From: [Chlorobium] sp. 445
Lineage (GTDB): Bacteria; Bacteroidota; Chlorobiia; Chlorobiales; Thermochlorobacteraceae
Direction of reading: 5' to 3'
Length of the DNA stretch: 64,000 nucleotides
Assembly (NCBI GenBank): GCA_002763895.1
Contig: NSLH01000001.1
Location: forward strand, 62,001 to 126,000
Below the pieces are notes generated by a model. It ran no database searches and was not told where the DNA came from. It was given only the letters and a program-made list of their open reading frames with translations. A program made the translations under genes and the position numbers. Positions within the stretch are counted from its first letter, which is position 1, and every line of letters starts with the position of its first letter. This document shows positions 30,078-36,910 of the stretch, one piece after another.

Positions 30078-32207
30078 ATGAGAAAGGCAGCTGTTAAACC
30101 GAGTCAAAAGGCTGAAAAGATACAAGTGTATGACCTTGTAGGATTACCCGTTGTGGTTGTCCAAGATGGACTCAAAATAATGCAGCCGATTTACGACTAC
30201 CACTCTACAGTTCATAGTCGGGCTATCATTGAGCATGCTAACATTTTACCAGATGAGGATGTGGTGTTGTTGTCCGATGCAGCTACAGCACACCGCACCA
30301 AACGCATTCTCGAAAAGTACGCAAAACGTCGATTTGCCATCGTAGTGATTGCAACACAGGAAGAACTTGCAAATCTGCCCAATCCAACTGAACTGCTCGA
30401 CCCGACTATTATCGATATCATTGAGACGCCGATAAGTTCGACACAGTTTGCCATCTTGTTGCGTCGTGTACAGTTCTTTTTCGAGAACTGCAATAAGTTT
30501 GATTTGCTCAAGCATGAGCTCCAAGAACAGCATGATGAATTGCGTAAGCTCAACGACATTGGCATTGCCCTCTCCAGCGAAAGAGATGTAACGAAACTCT
30601 TGGAGATGATTCTTGCCATTTGCATGGACATTACGGGTGCCGATGCAGGCAGTGTCTATGTGGTGGAAGATAAGCCCGGTGTGCCAGCTGATCCCTCAAA
30701 CTACTTTGCCAACAAACAACTACGGTTTCGGCATACCAAAAACTTCTCGAAGCGCATTCCCTTCAAAGAATTCACGATGCCGATTAGTCGCAGCAGTATT
30801 GTGGGTGCTGCAACGCTTTCGGGAGTGCCGCTCAATATCCCTGATGTCTACGAAATTCCGCCAGGAGCAACATACAGTTTCAATCGAGGCTTCGATATGA
30901 CAAGCGGCTACCGCACGAAATCCATGCTAACCGTACCGATGTTAAACCGCAACAAAGAAACCATTGGTGCCATTCAGCTGCTAAACAAAAAGACTGTCCC
31001 CACAGCACTGCTCACAAACGAAGAAGCCACAACAAAGTATGTTATTGCATTTGACAAGAACGACGAAGATTTTATTTATTCCTTAGCTTCGCAAGCGGCA
31101 GTGGCTCTCGAAAATCAAATTCTCTTTGAGGCGCATCGCAAGTTGCTGGAAGCCTTTATCCGTCTTATTGCTGAAGCCATTGATAGAAAATCGCCTTACA
31201 CGGGCGGGCATTGCAACCGCGTGCCTGTGCTGACGGAAATGCTGGCTAAAGCGGCTTGCGAGTCGCAAGATGAGCCGTTCCAAGATTTCAACCTAACTGA
31301 TGAACAGTGGTATGAATTGCATATTGCGGCGTGGTTGCACGATTGCGGTAAAATCGTTACCCCGGTCAATGTGATGGACAAAGCTACGAAACTGGAAAAA
31401 ATCTATGACCGCATTGAGACGATTAAGACACGCTTTGAAATTTTGCGACGCGATCTTGAGCTGGAGTATCTGCGCGCACGAACGGCGCCTAACGCAAAAC
31501 CGCTTGATGAACTCGAAGCTGACTACCAGCGCAAACTGGCTGAACTTGACGACGAACAAAAATTCATTGAGAAAGTCAACATCGGCGGCGAATACTTAGA
31601 CGATGCAAGTGTTGAGCGTATCAAGCGCATAGGTAATCGCAAACTTAGAATAAATGGCGAAGAGACACGTTTGCTCACGGACGAGGAAATCTACAACCTA
31701 AGTATCCGACGTGGCACACTCACTGCAGAAGAGCGCAAAATTATCAACGATCATATTGTCATTACGATTGAGATGCTTGAGAAATTGCCGTTCCCACGCA
31801 ACCTGATGCGTGTGCCTGAATACGCTGGTGGTCATCACGAGAAAATGGATGGCACAGGATATCCAAAAGGGCTAACGCGTGAGCAAATGTCCATCCCAGC
31901 ACGAATTATGGCAATTGCTGATGTGTTTGAAGCCCTCACAGCAGTTGATAGACCTTACAAGCGCGGCAAAACGCTCAGCGAAGCCATGGCAATTATGGGA
32001 AAGATGAAGGCTGAACATCATCTTGACCCTGACCTCTTTGATTTATTTGTCAAGTCAGGCGTCTATAAAGAGTATGCCAAAATGTACATGAGCCCCAATT
32101 TAATCGACGAAGTCGATGAAGAAGCGCTGCTTCAGATTCAGCCGCGCCCCAAAGGACCTATTGAAGTGACAACGCCCGTTGCGGCAATGGCGAGTGCATC
32201 ATCATAG
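30078..32207 (+). CDS. GAF-HD-GYP cyclic-nucleotide phosphodiesterase
   Basis: Likely degrades cyclic di-GMP (or a related dinucleotide). Order: a receiver-like N-terminal region (about 10-130), a GAF domain (about 165-345), then HD-GYP. The phosphodiesterase keeps HDCGK (about residue 420) and HHEKMDGTGYP (about 587-597). Between them lies an unusually long charged, helical insert of about 100 residues compared with a compact HD-GYP. The frame is open to a TTG at 30033; the ATG at 30078 is preferred. It ends 12 bp before the convergent HicB-like gene. Confidence 0.86.
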   Translation: MRKAAVKPSQKAEKIQVYDLVGLPVVVVQDGLKIMQPIYDYHSTVHSRAIIEHANILPDEDVVLLSDAATAHRTKRILEKYAKRRFAIVVIATQEELANLPNPTELLDPTIIDIIETPISSTQFAILLRRVQFFFENCNKFDLLKHELQEQHDELRKLNDIGIALSSERDVTKLLEMILAICMDITGADAGSVYVVEDKPGVPADPSNYFANKQLRFRHTKNFSKRIPFKEFTMPISRSSIVGAATLSGVPLNIPDVYEIPPGATYSFNRGFDMTSGYRTKSMLTVPMLNRNKETIGAIQLLNKKTVPTALLTNEEATTKYVIAFDKNDEDFIYSLASQAAVALENQILFEAHRKLLEAFIRLIAEAIDRKSPYTGGHCNRVPVLTEMLAKAACESQDEPFQDFNLTDEQWYELHIAAWLHDCGKIVTPVNVMDKATKLEKIYDRIETIKTRFEILRRDLELEYLRARTAPNAKPLDELEADYQRKLAELDDEQKFIEKVNIGGEYLDDASVERIKRIGNRKLRINGEETRLLTDEEIYNLSIRRGTLTAEERKIINDHIVITIEMLEKLPFPRNLMRVPEYAGGHHEKMDGTGYPKGLTREQMSIPARIMAIADVFEALTAVDRPYKRGKTLSEAMAIMGKMKAEHHLDPDLFDLFVKSGVYKEYAKMYMSPNLIDEVDEEALLQIQPRPKGPIEVTTPVAAMASASS

Positions 32208-32219
32208 CCCAGTGTGTGC

Positions 32220-32447
32220 TCACGCATTGACCTCGATATAGCTGGAGCGATATCGAGGGCGTGGGATTGGAAGCCCATCTTTGGCAAGCCAATAGAGATG
32301 AGTTTGGATAGCATGCTGCATATTGCGTTTGGCTTCATCGGGTGTGGCACCAAGGGCAGTGCAGCCGTCTAAGTCGGGCGAGAACGCTAGGTAACCGTGC
32401 TTTGTGCGTTCAATGAGAATCAAATACTTTTTCAAATTGGCTTTCAT
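32220..32447 (-). CDS. HicB-family antitoxin-like protein (orphan)
   Basis: 75-residue HicB core, a degenerate RNase H fold: GYLAFSPDLDGCTALGATPDEA is the family hallmark, followed by a helix ending near HLYWLAKDG. It lacks a C-terminal DNA-binding extension. No HicA toxin ORF lies beside it, so it is an orphan or acts on a distant partner. It is downstream of, and on the same strand as, the ImmA/IrrE gene, 108 bp away. A 9-bp inverted repeat spans its 3' end (32231-32258). Confidence 0.75.
   Translation of the reverse strand: MKANLKKYLILIERTKHGYLAFSPDLDGCTALGATPDEAKRNMQHAIQTHLYWLAKDGLPIPRPRYRSSYIEVNA
32231..32258. repeat. inverted repeat in 3' end of hicB-like gene
   Basis: CCTCGATAT, a 10-nt loop, ATATCGAGG: a perfect 9-bp stem lying within the last codons of the hicB-like gene, between two convergent transcripts. 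There is no U-run. Terminator or chance are both possible. Confidence 0.4.
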
Positions 32448-32555
32448 ATCTGCGCGTGTTTTCTTGTCTTTCTTCTGAACATGGTCTTATGCAGGTGTCG
32501 GCTCCCTGAACGCGTCAATTGCGCGTCTCTTTTCAATACGCCGGAGCGTGACAAC

Positions 32556-33397
32556 TCAAGCCTCAAAGTAAAGAAACGTGAGTACCCCAAATTGTCCTAA
32601 GCGCATAGATTGCTCAATGCAGACGGCATCGCGCAGCGTGGAATCGCGTAGTGCTGGAAACCAAGTGCGAGCAGTTGTTTGGGCAGCAAAAAATCCTTGA
32701 GCAGGTGGTTTTGCATTCATGAGTGCCCAGAGTGTCGGTGAGTTTTCAGGCAGTTGTGTGGCTGTAGAAATTGGCGATGGGAAGTGAGCGATAAAGTTGT
32801 CTTCAGAGGCGCGTTTCCAGAGCAAGCCCCGCTGCAAATCCCATTTCATGACAAGGCAGGAGACAAGCCCGATTTGAGCGTAGCGTAAAGCGGTGCTCGT
32901 GATAGAAGTCTGAAAGTAGCGTTGCAGCGACAAAATGCCAGACATACCAAGCGGAAAATCTTTAGCGCGCTGTAAAAAATAGGTGCGTGGCATCAAAAGA
33001 TTTGAGGCAAACCAATCAGCTTCGCGCTCGACGAGATTATCCGATTCATATTCGCAGATAGAAAGATGCGCAGGGGCAAAACCAGATTGCAGGGCATTAC
33101 GATGTTCGTCAATAAAGTAGTGCCCTAACTCATGAGCGAGCGTAAAGCGTGCACGTGGAGAATCATGGCGCTCGACACGGCTGAGATTGCAATAGATGTG
33201 AAAGCGTTTGTCATAATACTCGAGCATACCATCAAAGGCATTTTTGTAGTAGCCGAAGCTGTACGTAATATTTTTTTGCGCACAATGCTCAGGGGCTCGA
33301 CTCTGCCATTGCTGCCGTATTCTTCGGCGATAAATTCTGCAAGATCTGCGATTTCATCAGCACGTGAAAGCGCACTATCAACTAAAGAGATCTTCAT
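32556..33397 (-). CDS. ImmA/IrrE family metallopeptidase (frameshifted)
   Basis: Zinc metalloprotease of the type that cleaves repressors or other regulators (ImmA of ICEBs1, IrrE/PprI of Deinococcus). The active site HELGHYF is followed by the third-ligand region VEREADWFASNLLMP, both intact. The N-terminal part is in another frame: one missing T at the T7 run 33271-33277 joins IVRKK to NITYSFGYYKNAFDGML, giving 280 residues. ATG at 33397. It overlaps the upstream 126-residue gene by 20 bp, so coupling is likely. C-terminal domain unassigned. Confidence 0.82.
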
Positions 33398-33758
33398 AGT
33401 CTTTTCCCTTTTGGTGTCTAGTCTCAGCGGCTTGGCGGTCGCGCCGCATTTTTTCTTCGACATCGGGTGGAATGACACCACCTTCACGTGCAGCGCGTGC
33501 CATCTGCTCCTGAATGGCGCTATCAAGCGATATCGCTCTGTCTTGGCGCTCGTTCAGTTTAGCAAAAATCGCATCAGGCGATTCCAGTGTTTTCGGCAGA
33601 TGCAAGTGACCTGATGCTAAGGCTCGCTCAACTTCTACCTCAATGGCTTGCAGCGATGCCTCATCAAGCGGCTCAATCCACCCAAGCGAGAGCATCGTGT
33701 GCCATATCTGTGCATCAAGCAAGTCATCGAGTCGCAAGCGAGAACGATGTTGGCTCAT
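33378..33758 (-). CDS. hypothetical protein encoded between sigma factor and ImmA-like protease
   Basis: 126-residue soluble, charged, mostly helical protein with no recognised domain, membrane segment or helix-turn-helix. It starts 17 bp after the sigma-factor gene and its 3' end overlaps the protease gene by 20 bp. In other systems ImmA/IrrE-type proteases are encoded next to the regulator they cleave. By position this protein is a candidate substrate, inhibitor or adaptor of the sigma factor. That role is inference only. Confidence 0.7.
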   Translation of the reverse strand: MSQHRSRLRLDDLLDAQIWHTMLSLGWIEPLDEASLQAIEVEVERALASGHLHLPKTLESPDAIFAKLNERQDRAISLDSAIQEQMARAAREGGVIPPDVEEKMRRDRQAAETRHQKGKDYEDLFS

Positions 33759-33775
33759 AGCTCTGAGAGTTAAGT

Positions 33776-34843
33776 TTAAGTTCTAGATGCAAAGTGCATT
33801 TTGAGAGCCGTTTCAATTTTCTCAATAGCGCAGTGTGCAATTTCTACAATCTCTTCTGGCGTAATTTGATATTCCGCCACGAGTGCGTCTGCGACAGAGT
33901 CTGGCAAAGCGTTGTTTTGCTCACAGAAACAATACCATGCAAAGAGAATCCTTTGCTCACGTTTCGGCAGACTCTGCAGCATGCGAATAAAAGCCTGCAC
34001 TTTAGAGCGTATCTTATCGAGAAAATCTTTCATATCCGCAGCTTCGACCTGATGCTGCATAGCCAGCTGCTGAATTGCCGTATCAGAAAGCTCGCCGTGA
34101 GACTCACAAAGCAAATGCGCATCGCAGAAAGTAGTGCGCTCGGGTTCTGATAACCACATCAAAGCAACAATTGTATGCTCGATTTTTTTGCGTGCGCGGC
34201 TCAAAATTTTCCTAATGTTCTCACGCGTCGTCTGATGCTGTGCGGTCAGATCATCGATCACGGAAGAAGGCAATTTTTTACTAGGCTCATACCACTGATA
34301 GATGACACGCAAAATGTCTTGCTCGCGCTCTGGGAGCAACTGCAAGGCGACTTTCACAAGGCGCATGCGAATAGAGTTTGGCAAGGACGCATCGCTTAAC
34401 TCACTAGCAACACTACTTGCATCAACGAGCTGTGCTTCCTCGCCTTCGGAAAATCGCTCCGCGTTCAGACTTATGTTACGGCGCAAGCGATCTTTGAAGA
34501 GGTTTTCAGCAATACGGTAGAGCCAAGCACGCGTTTGCTTGTGGTGTGCCTCACACGCTGAGGCAGCAGCATCTGAGACATCATCAACAAACGTATGCGC
34601 TTTTTCAAATACGCGCAGAAAAGTCTCTTGCACAAGGTCAGTAATACTTTCTTCCAGGTCTGTGCTAGCAAGTGCAGGGTTTGTAAAGCGACTCTTGCAG
34701 AAATAAAACACATGATGAATATGCCGCTCATAAAATACTTTGAATGCAGCGTCAGCAAGAGAAGCGTTATGCTTGCGCTGTGCAACGAGTGCAAGCAATT
34801 CGCCATCAGTTTTGTGGCTCAAATCTAGGTGCAGGTTTGGCAT
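33776..34843 (-). CDS. sigma-70 family (ECF-like) factor with three tandem region-4-like repeats
   Basis: RNA-polymerase sigma factor. Region 2 spans about residues 31-122 (FKVFYERHIHHVFYFCK, LVQETFLRVFEKA, TRAWLYRIAENLFKDRLRR). A standard region-4 module follows at about 165-224 (LPEREQDILR ... ENIRKILSRARKKIE). The same module is then repeated twice without gaps at a 61-residue period (about 226-285 and 287-346), with equivalent Leu/Pro and Gln positions at 170/231/292 and 204/265/326. The third copy keeps LPKREQRIL. The frame is open well upstream, but the ATG at 34843 gives the normal N terminus; 355 residues. A TATCTTTG element lies 76 nt upstream. Confidence 0.82.
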   Translation of the reverse strand: MPNLHLDLSHKTDGELLALVAQRKHNASLADAAFKVFYERHIHHVFYFCKSRFTNPALASTDLEESITDLVQETFLRVFEKAHTFVDDVSDAAASACEAHHKQTRAWLYRIAENLFKDRLRRNISLNAERFSEGEEAQLVDASSVASELSDASLPNSIRMRLVKVALQLLPEREQDILRVIYQWYEPSKKLPSSVIDDLTAQHQTTRENIRKILSRARKKIEHTIVALMWLSEPERTTFCDAHLLCESHGELSDTAIQQLAMQHQVEAADMKDFLDKIRSKVQAFIRMLQSLPKREQRILFAWYCFCEQNNALPDSVADALVAEYQITPEEIVEIAHCAIEKIETALKMHFASRT

Positions 34844-35181
34844 CGCCAGCAGCTCTATCTTCAAAAGTTTTGAGAGACGGATGTACGCACTCCCTTTCGC
34901 TTTCAGTCCTAACACACGCAAAGATATATTTCGTTGCCATGAATTGATGCATGGTGCTGGCATATGCTCAATCTGGATAACGGCGTGATACATAACTTTA
35001 TAGCGATATAATGTCATAAGCCCCCTTTGACGCCACATCTCGGTATCGCCATCACCCTTTGACTTACAGTTTGCTTGCCCAAAGGTAATGAGCGTGGAGC
35101 TATTGGCTTTACTTAAAGCAGTACGCCAAAGCGTGACGAAACACGACACAAGCGCAGTGCTACTGCAGCAAAAGTATGGAA
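34844..35181 (-). other. upstream region of sigma-factor gene
   Basis: About 340 bp without a convincing gene, between ribF and the sigma gene. The minus strand carries TATCTTTG (34926-34919), a good -7 match, but no TTG at the usual distance. The open frame running through here shows no protein-like composition. Confidence 0.4.
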
Positions 35182-36171
35182 TCAGGCATGTTGGAAGGTC
35201 TGGTGCGGCGCAGAAAAAGTAGCCGCAAGGGCTTTATCCATCTCGAGTTGGGCTTTGAGTGCATCGAGACTGGGGAACTTTTGCTCATCACGCAGACGCG
35301 AAAGCAGTTGTATTGTCAGCAACTGTCCGTAAAGATTACCGCTGAAATTCAAAATGTGCGCTTCAATGCTGAGGTGCGTGCCAGTTGAGACCGTTGGACG
35401 ATAGCCGATATTAACCATGGCGCGATACTTGGCATTGTTCATCAGAGCATCGGCAACATAGACGCCTGGACTTGGCACAAGTTTGAGTGGGTCGAGCAGG
35501 TCTAAATTAGCCGTTGGAAAGCCAATCAGGCGACCGCGCTGCTCACCTTCAACAACCTTGCCAGTCAGCCGATAGGGGCTACCTAAGAGCGTATTGGCGT
35601 CACGAAGTTGCCCGCTGCTTAAAAGCGAGCGAATTTGTGTGCTAGAAACAGCTCGTCCATTGAGCATAAATTCTTCTACCACCTCAACCGAGAACGAGTG
35701 TTTCACTGAAAGCTGGCTTAAGGTTTGCAGTGTGCCACTGCGATCTCTGCCAAAGCCATGGTCGTACCCAATGACCATCGCAGCTAACCCAAACTCCTTG
35801 AGTAAAATTTGCTCGACAAAATCCTCAGGCGAAAGTGCTGCGAAGGCTTTCGTAAATTCGATGACAATAACGCTATCCAAGCCAAGTTCAGACAGCAGGG
35901 CGAGCTTTTCTTCTGTTGTGGTCAAAAGACGCACAGGCGCAGCATCTTTCTTGCTGACAACTGTGCGTGGATGAGGTGCAAAGGTCAAAAGGGTACTGCG
36001 CAATCCTGTTGTGTGCGCCTTAGCAAGAAGAGCGGCAATAATTTTGCGATGACCAAGATGCACGCCATCAAATGTACCCAGTGTGATGACGCCTGTGCGC
36101 GGAGCAAAGGGCAGAGCAGGTTCGCCGTGGGGCGTAAGAAGTTGAGAATGCTTATAGTAAAAAATCTGCAT
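35182..36171 (-). CDS. ribF: bifunctional riboflavin kinase / FAD synthetase
   Basis: Makes FMN and FAD from riboflavin. The N-terminal FAD-synthetase domain shows LGTFDGVHLGHRKII (about 31-45) and GYDHGFGRDRSG. The C-terminal kinase domain shows GRLIGFPTANL and the late VNIGYRPTV region. 329 residues is normal. It is the last gene of the rimP-nusA-infB-rbfA-truB-ribF series, 2 bp after truB, a conserved bacterial neighbourhood. Confidence 0.94.
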   Translation of the reverse strand: MQIFYYKHSQLLTPHGEPALPFAPRTGVITLGTFDGVHLGHRKIIAALLAKAHTTGLRSTLLTFAPHPRTVVSKKDAAPVRLLTTTEEKLALLSELGLDSVIVIEFTKAFAALSPEDFVEQILLKEFGLAAMVIGYDHGFGRDRSGTLQTLSQLSVKHSFSVEVVEEFMLNGRAVSSTQIRSLLSSGQLRDANTLLGSPYRLTGKVVEGEQRGRLIGFPTANLDLLDPLKLVPSPGVYVADALMNNAKYRAMVNIGYRPTVSTGTHLSIEAHILNFSGNLYGQLLTIQLLSRLRDEQKFPSLDALKAQLEMDKALAATFSAPHQTFQHA

Positions 36172-36173
36172 CG

Positions 36174-36910
36174 TTAAGACTCATTGGATTGCGCAAGGGC
36201 GATACCCTGTTTAGCAATGTCGCTGAGGATCTCTTCAAGGCGCTTGGCATCAGCAACGTCGAAGTTGCCAATGCGCTCACGCCGAAGCGCGTAAAGATAA
36301 GCACCGACACCTAAGGCTTCGCCAAAGTCATGCGCCAAAGTACGAATATAAGTACCTTTGGAGACACGACTGCAAAACCACACAAACGGTAACTCAATGC
36401 GCATAATTGTAAACTCAAAAATTTCTACTTCGCGCCGTGCTCTATCGGCAATGACTTTTCCAGCACGTGCAAAATCGTAGAGACGCTTACCATGGTACCA
36501 GACTGCAGAATGCATCGGGGGCTGTTGCAACAGTTTTCCCCTAAAGCGCATCGCGGTCTCCAAAATGTCTTGATGAGAAAGATTGGTAAGCGGTTTAAGG
36601 TCATATTCTTCTGTCTCGCTGTCGTAACTTGGCGTTTTAGCGCCAAGTTTCATGCAGCCAGAATAGGTTTTGTCTAGAGTTTCGAGATAGGCGAGCTCTT
36701 TGGTTTTTTGCCAACGGCAAGCAGCAAGAGACCTGTGGCTTTGGGGTCAAGTGTGCCGCTGTGCCCGACTTTGCAGCGAAAGCCTGCACGCGTGTAAGCA
36801 TTGCGTACTTTGGCAACCACGTCGAAAGAGGTCCAATCAAGTGGCTTATCAATCAGCAAAAGCTGGGAAGGGCACTCGCGCAAGGCAATATGCTTCTTTG
36901 CAAACCACAT
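36174..36910 (-). CDS. truB: tRNA pseudouridine-55 synthase (frameshifted)
   Basis: Converts U55 of tRNAs to pseudouridine. The catalytic Asp lies in the motif GHSGTLDPKATGLLL, preceded by LLIDKPLDWTS. The second half contains TRNA-binding blocks such as VSKGTYIRTLAHD. The gene is in two frames: one missing T in the T6 run 36705-36710 restores VGKKTKELAYLETLDKTYSGC. ATG at 36910 is preferred, 10 bp after rbfA. 245 residues restored, typical of a TruB without long extension. Confidence 0.88.

Follow-up and report, generated by a model that had tools for sequence, protein, structure and literature searches.

Gene and domain layout of the locus

We analysed a 64,000-nucleotide stretch of DNA from [Chlorobium] sp. 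445, referred to below as the window. A gene at 33776..34843 (-) encodes an ECF-type sigma factor of 355 aa in which sigma2 and a linker are followed by three tandem sigma4 modules, as established from the translation, Pfam, NCBIfam and comparison with relatives. The start codon is backed by the relatives, whose N termini align there. Region 2 (residues 37-123; 34475..34735 (-)) matched Pfam PF04542 above the cut-off (E 1.1e-9), and its DLVQ and WLxRI motifs are conserved in relatives. The whole protein was classed as sigma70-ECF by NCBIfam (TIGR02937, score 58.2 against a threshold of 42.9, E 7.4e-16). Its architecture is that of an ECF factor, with region 4 placed after the linker and neither region 1.1 nor region 3 present, and two surplus copies then follow.

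Copy 1 (residues 164-224; 34172..34354 (-)) carries a basic recognition helix, TTRENIRKILSRARKKIEHT. It was recognised by Pfam PF04545 over residues 166-221 (E 1.2e-5, 25.1 bits against a cut-off of 24.1) and is the lone copy above the Pfam threshold, in keeping with its earlier description as a good region 4. Copy 2 (residues 225-285; 33989..34171 (-)) is acidic, has a neutral recognition helix and contains C240-H243-C246-H249. Copy 3 (residues 286-346; 33806..33988 (-)) retains LPKREQRIL. Both fell below threshold in the Pfam search, where only region 2 and copy 1 exceeded it; Pfam found no receiver domain in the sigma factor. Residues 225-355 form an extension C-terminal to sigma4 that is missing from all relatives.

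Three modules with an exact 61-residue period

The C terminus of the sigma factor was compared with itself and found to consist of three ungapped 61-residue modules repeating with an exact 61-residue period. In ungapped self-comparison, lags 61 and 122 stood out, with best local BLOSUM62 scores of 102 and 104, while the next lag reached 33. When residues 160-355 were shuffled (n=3000), the largest score over all lags was 51 and the mean was 26. The exact gapless period that had been proposed, together with the self-alignment suggested as a check on it, is thus strongly significant, with both scores above every shuffle, and the equivalent positions that had been quoted (Leu170/231/292, Leu191/252/313 and Gln204/265/326) are all correct in the translation. 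Copies 1 and 3 share 27/61 residues (z 9.1), copies 1 and 2 share 16/61 (z 6.6) and copies 2 and 3 share 11/61 (z 5.5). BLASTP matched copy 2 to copy 1 without gaps (E 9e-7), and residues 223-355, used alone as query, matched the relatives' region 4 (E 4.5e-8 and 2e-8). An assembly artefact was ruled out as the source of the repeat because the copies are just 40-49% identical in nucleotides.

Predicted structures were consistent with this picture. The full-length AlphaFold2 model rested on 12 aligned ECF factors, all unrelated, which left copies 2 and 3 almost uncovered. A helix triplet recurs in it, at 172-184/193-203/207-232 in copy 1, 240-249/254-263/268-291 in copy 2 and 294-310/315-325/329-354 in copy 3, with block-mean pLDDT of 40-73 in copy 2 and 52-79 in copy 3. 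Overall confidence was low (pTM 0.43), so the packing of the domains cannot be read from this model. Copy 2 modelled alone reached a pLDDT of 92, using an alignment of copies 1 and 3 with seven ECF region-4 segments, which favours a sigma4-like outcome. The top PDB matches of this model were sigma4 domains (TM about 0.65-0.73), among them 2h27 (sigmaE region 4 on DNA) and 3hug (a -35-binding domain with the anti-sigma RslA). Together, the models point to a sigma4 helical fold for copies 2 and 3, in the case of copy 3 by its helix pattern and its 27/61 identity to copy 1. They agree with the three region-4-like modules of the original prediction, which would have been contradicted had copies 2 and 3 taken another fold.

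Relatives and origin of the tail

We found five relatives with a single region 4: G001 and G002 (same genus), G003 (same family), G009 (same order) and G207 (a distant family). All five end shortly past the position where copy 1 ends. Over the module, region 4 of G001, G002, G003 and G009 shows 59-74% identity to copy 1, and that of G207 is more distant. A family consensus was built from copy 1 and the four closer relatives; identity to it was 49/61 for copy 1, 26/61 for copy 3 and 15/61 for copy 2. On these sequence comparisons, copy 1 represents the ancestral region 4. Ten residues are private to copy 1, and copy 3 has four of them, while it has only 0-1 of the residues private to each relative, which favours a duplication in the lineage of the window. 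The simplest reading is that the tail (copies 2 and 3) arose by in-lineage duplication of region 4 followed by rapid divergence. The tree gave no order of duplication, copies 2 and 3 being long branches.

The tail is present in one genome only. A sequence search for other tandem-sigma4 proteins found none among 121 relatives or 395 genomes of the phylum. Scans of genome contigs for wider sigma relatives gave none in the first round and ordinary ECF factors only in the second; the latter served as outgroups. Matches of copy 3 in two genomes (G115 and G176) were rejected, as they reflect chance sharing of LPxxxQRxxFAxYxxC by proteins that are not sigma relatives and that we take to be squalene/phytoene-synthase-like.

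Hydrophobic core and recognition surface of copies 2 and 3

To describe the core, we used the 17 positions at which copy 1 and four relatives all have a hydrophobic residue. Copy 2 retains 15/17 and copy 3 the full set of 17/17 (permutation with n=100,000, P 0.00015 and 0, respectively). The surface that grips DNA gave a different result. At the six basic recognition-helix positions, copy 2 has K,D,K,R,S,K and copy 3 has V,E,C,I,E,K. Over the 20-residue recognition segment, net charge comes to +5 in copy 1, 0 in copy 2 and -4 in copy 3, whereas the same segment in 29 unrelated ECF factors carries +1 to +9. Judged against those 29 factors, a basic recognition helix is absent from copies 2 and 3. 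Over the whole module, the net charge is +4 in copy 1 and -5 in both copies 2 and 3. As predicted originally, copy 3 keeps LPKREQRIL, but this stretch is its N-terminal helix, on the region 4.1 side, and not the DNA-binding half.

These results bear on the idea, put forward in the original prediction, that the three modules bind repeated -35-like elements. In its favour, all three modules are sigma4-like, and upstream of the sigma gene (35023..35063 (-)) there are two direct copies of GTCAAAGGG, 32 bp apart. However, the recognition helices of copies 2 and 3 are neutral or acidic, as opposed to basic in 29/29 unrelated ECF sigma4 domains, their modules are acidic as a whole, and no motif is common to the upstream regions of the relatives: none of at least 9 bases was shared by the cassettes of at least three genomes. 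We therefore consider DNA binding by all three modules very improbable. Since the positively charged DNA-gripping residues have been lost from two copies, an unusual built-in control tail is more likely than extra promoter readers. The window contains one further copy only of GTCAAAGGG, against a chance expectation of 0.3 in 64 kb. No RNA elements were detected in 32000-36500.

A tail found in a single genome could also be a relic, formed by chance duplication of region 4, in which copies 2 and 3 drift and are tolerated as harmless. Such a history would fit the long branches of copies 2 and 3, the two same-genus relatives that lack them and the peptidase gene of the adjoining cassette (see below), which is also broken. 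Several features of the tail argue against drift. Copies 2 and 3 remain open over 366 nt, with no stop and no indel despite great divergence; the chance of 122 random codons remaining open is about 0.0014. The period is exact, the hydrophobic core is kept at 32/34 positions, and the change in charge is directed rather than randomly scattered. Per site, nonsynonymous differences between copies (pN 0.42-0.52) lie below synonymous ones (pS 0.68-0.87), and the synonymous values approach or exceed saturation. The codon-position GC is coding-like throughout the modules. The protein is therefore probably under selection, as far as a between-copy comparison can tell. On this evidence, we judge a relic to be unlikely.

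We also weighed a sensory function, in which C240-H243-C246-H249 of copy 2 together with C305, C307, H337 and C338 of copy 3 would bind metal or form disulphides and so switch the sigma factor. Five of the seven cysteines of the protein sit in copies 2 and 3, and C246 and C307 share one module position. Nevertheless, the spacing of the Cys and His residues is unlike the ZAS motif (H-x3-C-x2-C), they lie along a helix in the isolated copy-2 model, and the pattern was noticed post hoc in a tail known from one genome. A sensor of this kind seems improbable to us, even with the precedent of CorE, whose Cys-rich tail switches the sigma factor (PMC8999054).

The adjoining small protein and peptidase

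The sigma gene heads a cassette. A gene for a small protein of 126 aa (33378..33758 (-)) starts 17 nt downstream of the sigma stop on the same strand, and its 3' end overlaps the start (33397) of a gene for an M78 (ImmA/IrrE, CapP-like) metallopeptidase (32556..33397 (-)). A small protein of this family lies beside every relative of the sigma factor, and the three genes adjoin in G001, G002, G003, G009 and G207. Across 61 related genomes, the small protein occurs in exactly the five that have the sigma factor, the window's own included; the peptidase occurs in the same five, with one additional marginal partial match (E 8.9e-4). The small protein is a putative partner or anti-sigma factor, a role that its position and co-occurrence suggest. 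It is distantly CapH-like: the PADLOC capH model matched 2/6 members of the family weakly (best 2e-5), the window's own being unmatched. Searches of the small protein found no Pfam family and no HTH.

The window peptidase matched Pfam M78 (E 1.1e-14) and the PADLOC capP model (1.7e-37, compared with 2.2e-61 for the peptidase of G207), and the HELGH (HExxH) motif typical of CapP is present. The G207 peptidase also matched the solved CapP structure 7t5t (3.4e-9). In the window the reading frame of the gene is split at an A7 run (33271-33277), through either a sequencing error or a real loss, with the N-terminal part running from 33397 and the HELGH part in another frame; the relatives examined have an unbroken frame.

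Against its same-genus relatives, the sigma factor shows about 50% identity, as compared with 75-82% for the peptidase (32556-33227); the sigma factor and small protein evolve much faster than the peptidase. The peptidase gene is followed by a small HicB-like gene (32220-32447), and G002 and G003 have a similar gene in the corresponding position. In G207 (L143:3776-10351), the cassette adjoins a Bil-like set of ubiquitin-like, JAB and E1-like genes (BilD 4.8e-15) and has a TnsA-like gene on its other side, which suggests a mobile defence island controlled by the cassette.

Discussion

Among the readings considered, we lean towards a sigma factor with one working sigma4 (copy 1) and a sigma4-derived, non-DNA-binding regulatory tail that acts via protein contact. 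The tail would have arisen by tandem duplication of region 4, and the two extra domains have kept the fold and lost the DNA-gripping surface. Copy 1 would then carry out promoter binding, and the tail would act by protein contact as a mimic of sigma4. This could happen in two ways. The tail may bind the small protein of the cassette in competition with copy 1, serving as a decoy or as an extra docking site. Alternatively, it may fold back on sigma2, on copy 1 or on the beta-flap contact, and so keep the sigma factor from engaging RNA polymerase. The original prediction had raised, as a second option, that the extra copies serve as a protein-binding surface or as a built-in anti-sigma, and such a role is possible.

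The cassette offers a candidate for the relief of such inhibition. Single-stranded DNA reportedly activates CapP and PprI, and each is reported to cleave a partner protein that acts as a repressor (PMC13373217, PMC10904395). If the cassette resembles the CapH-CapP and DdrO-PprI pairs in this respect, its peptidase might cleave the small protein once single-stranded DNA accumulates. We suggest tentatively, as a possibility that may well prove wrong, that the duplicates of the sigma factor's own sigma4 form an in-cis decoy or built-in anti-sigma within a DNA-damage-sensing circuit of sigma factor, small protein and CapP-like protease. The frameshift in the window peptidase means that the relief step may be absent in this genome. 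Both known systems likewise have a small regulator adjoining an M78 peptidase, but the cassette described here is headed by a sigma factor and its peptidase frame is broken in the window; unlike in CapH, no DNA-binding domain is recognised in its small protein, and the capH match within the family of that protein is weak.

ECF factors are known with C-terminal extensions of several kinds, including SnoaL-like, TPR, WD40, Cys-rich and anti-sigma or zinc-finger domains with transmembrane parts (PMC8999054). As in the window protein, their sigma2-sigma4 core is followed directly by the extra C-terminal region; the tail found here differs in that it is built from two duplicates of the protein's own sigma4, and no extension described in PMC8999054 is of sigma origin. 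A second parallel is PhyR, where a sigma-like decoy domain with degenerate DNA and RNAP contacts mediates a NepR-EcfG partner switch (PMC8103513). Here too a sigma-fold domain has degenerated promoter contacts, but the decoy of PhyR sits on a separate response regulator, whereas the two extra sigma4 domains of the window sit in cis and without a receiver domain. A further comparison is with the five single-sigma4 relatives, which have the same cassette but end after one region 4. Our literature search, which mostly did not reach subscription papers, found no sigma factor with a duplicated or tandem region 4, in line with the original view that this layout had not been described.

The conserved association with a CapP-like peptidase suggests a sigma circuit controlled by DNA damage, of which we found no description. 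Regulatory tails of ECF factors are known, and reviews trace some of them to fusion with an anti-sigma factor; the tail of the window protein derives instead from its own region 4. With an apparent origin in a single lineage and an ancestral state that is clearly single-copy, this tail offers a testable case of a DNA reader being converted into a protein module.
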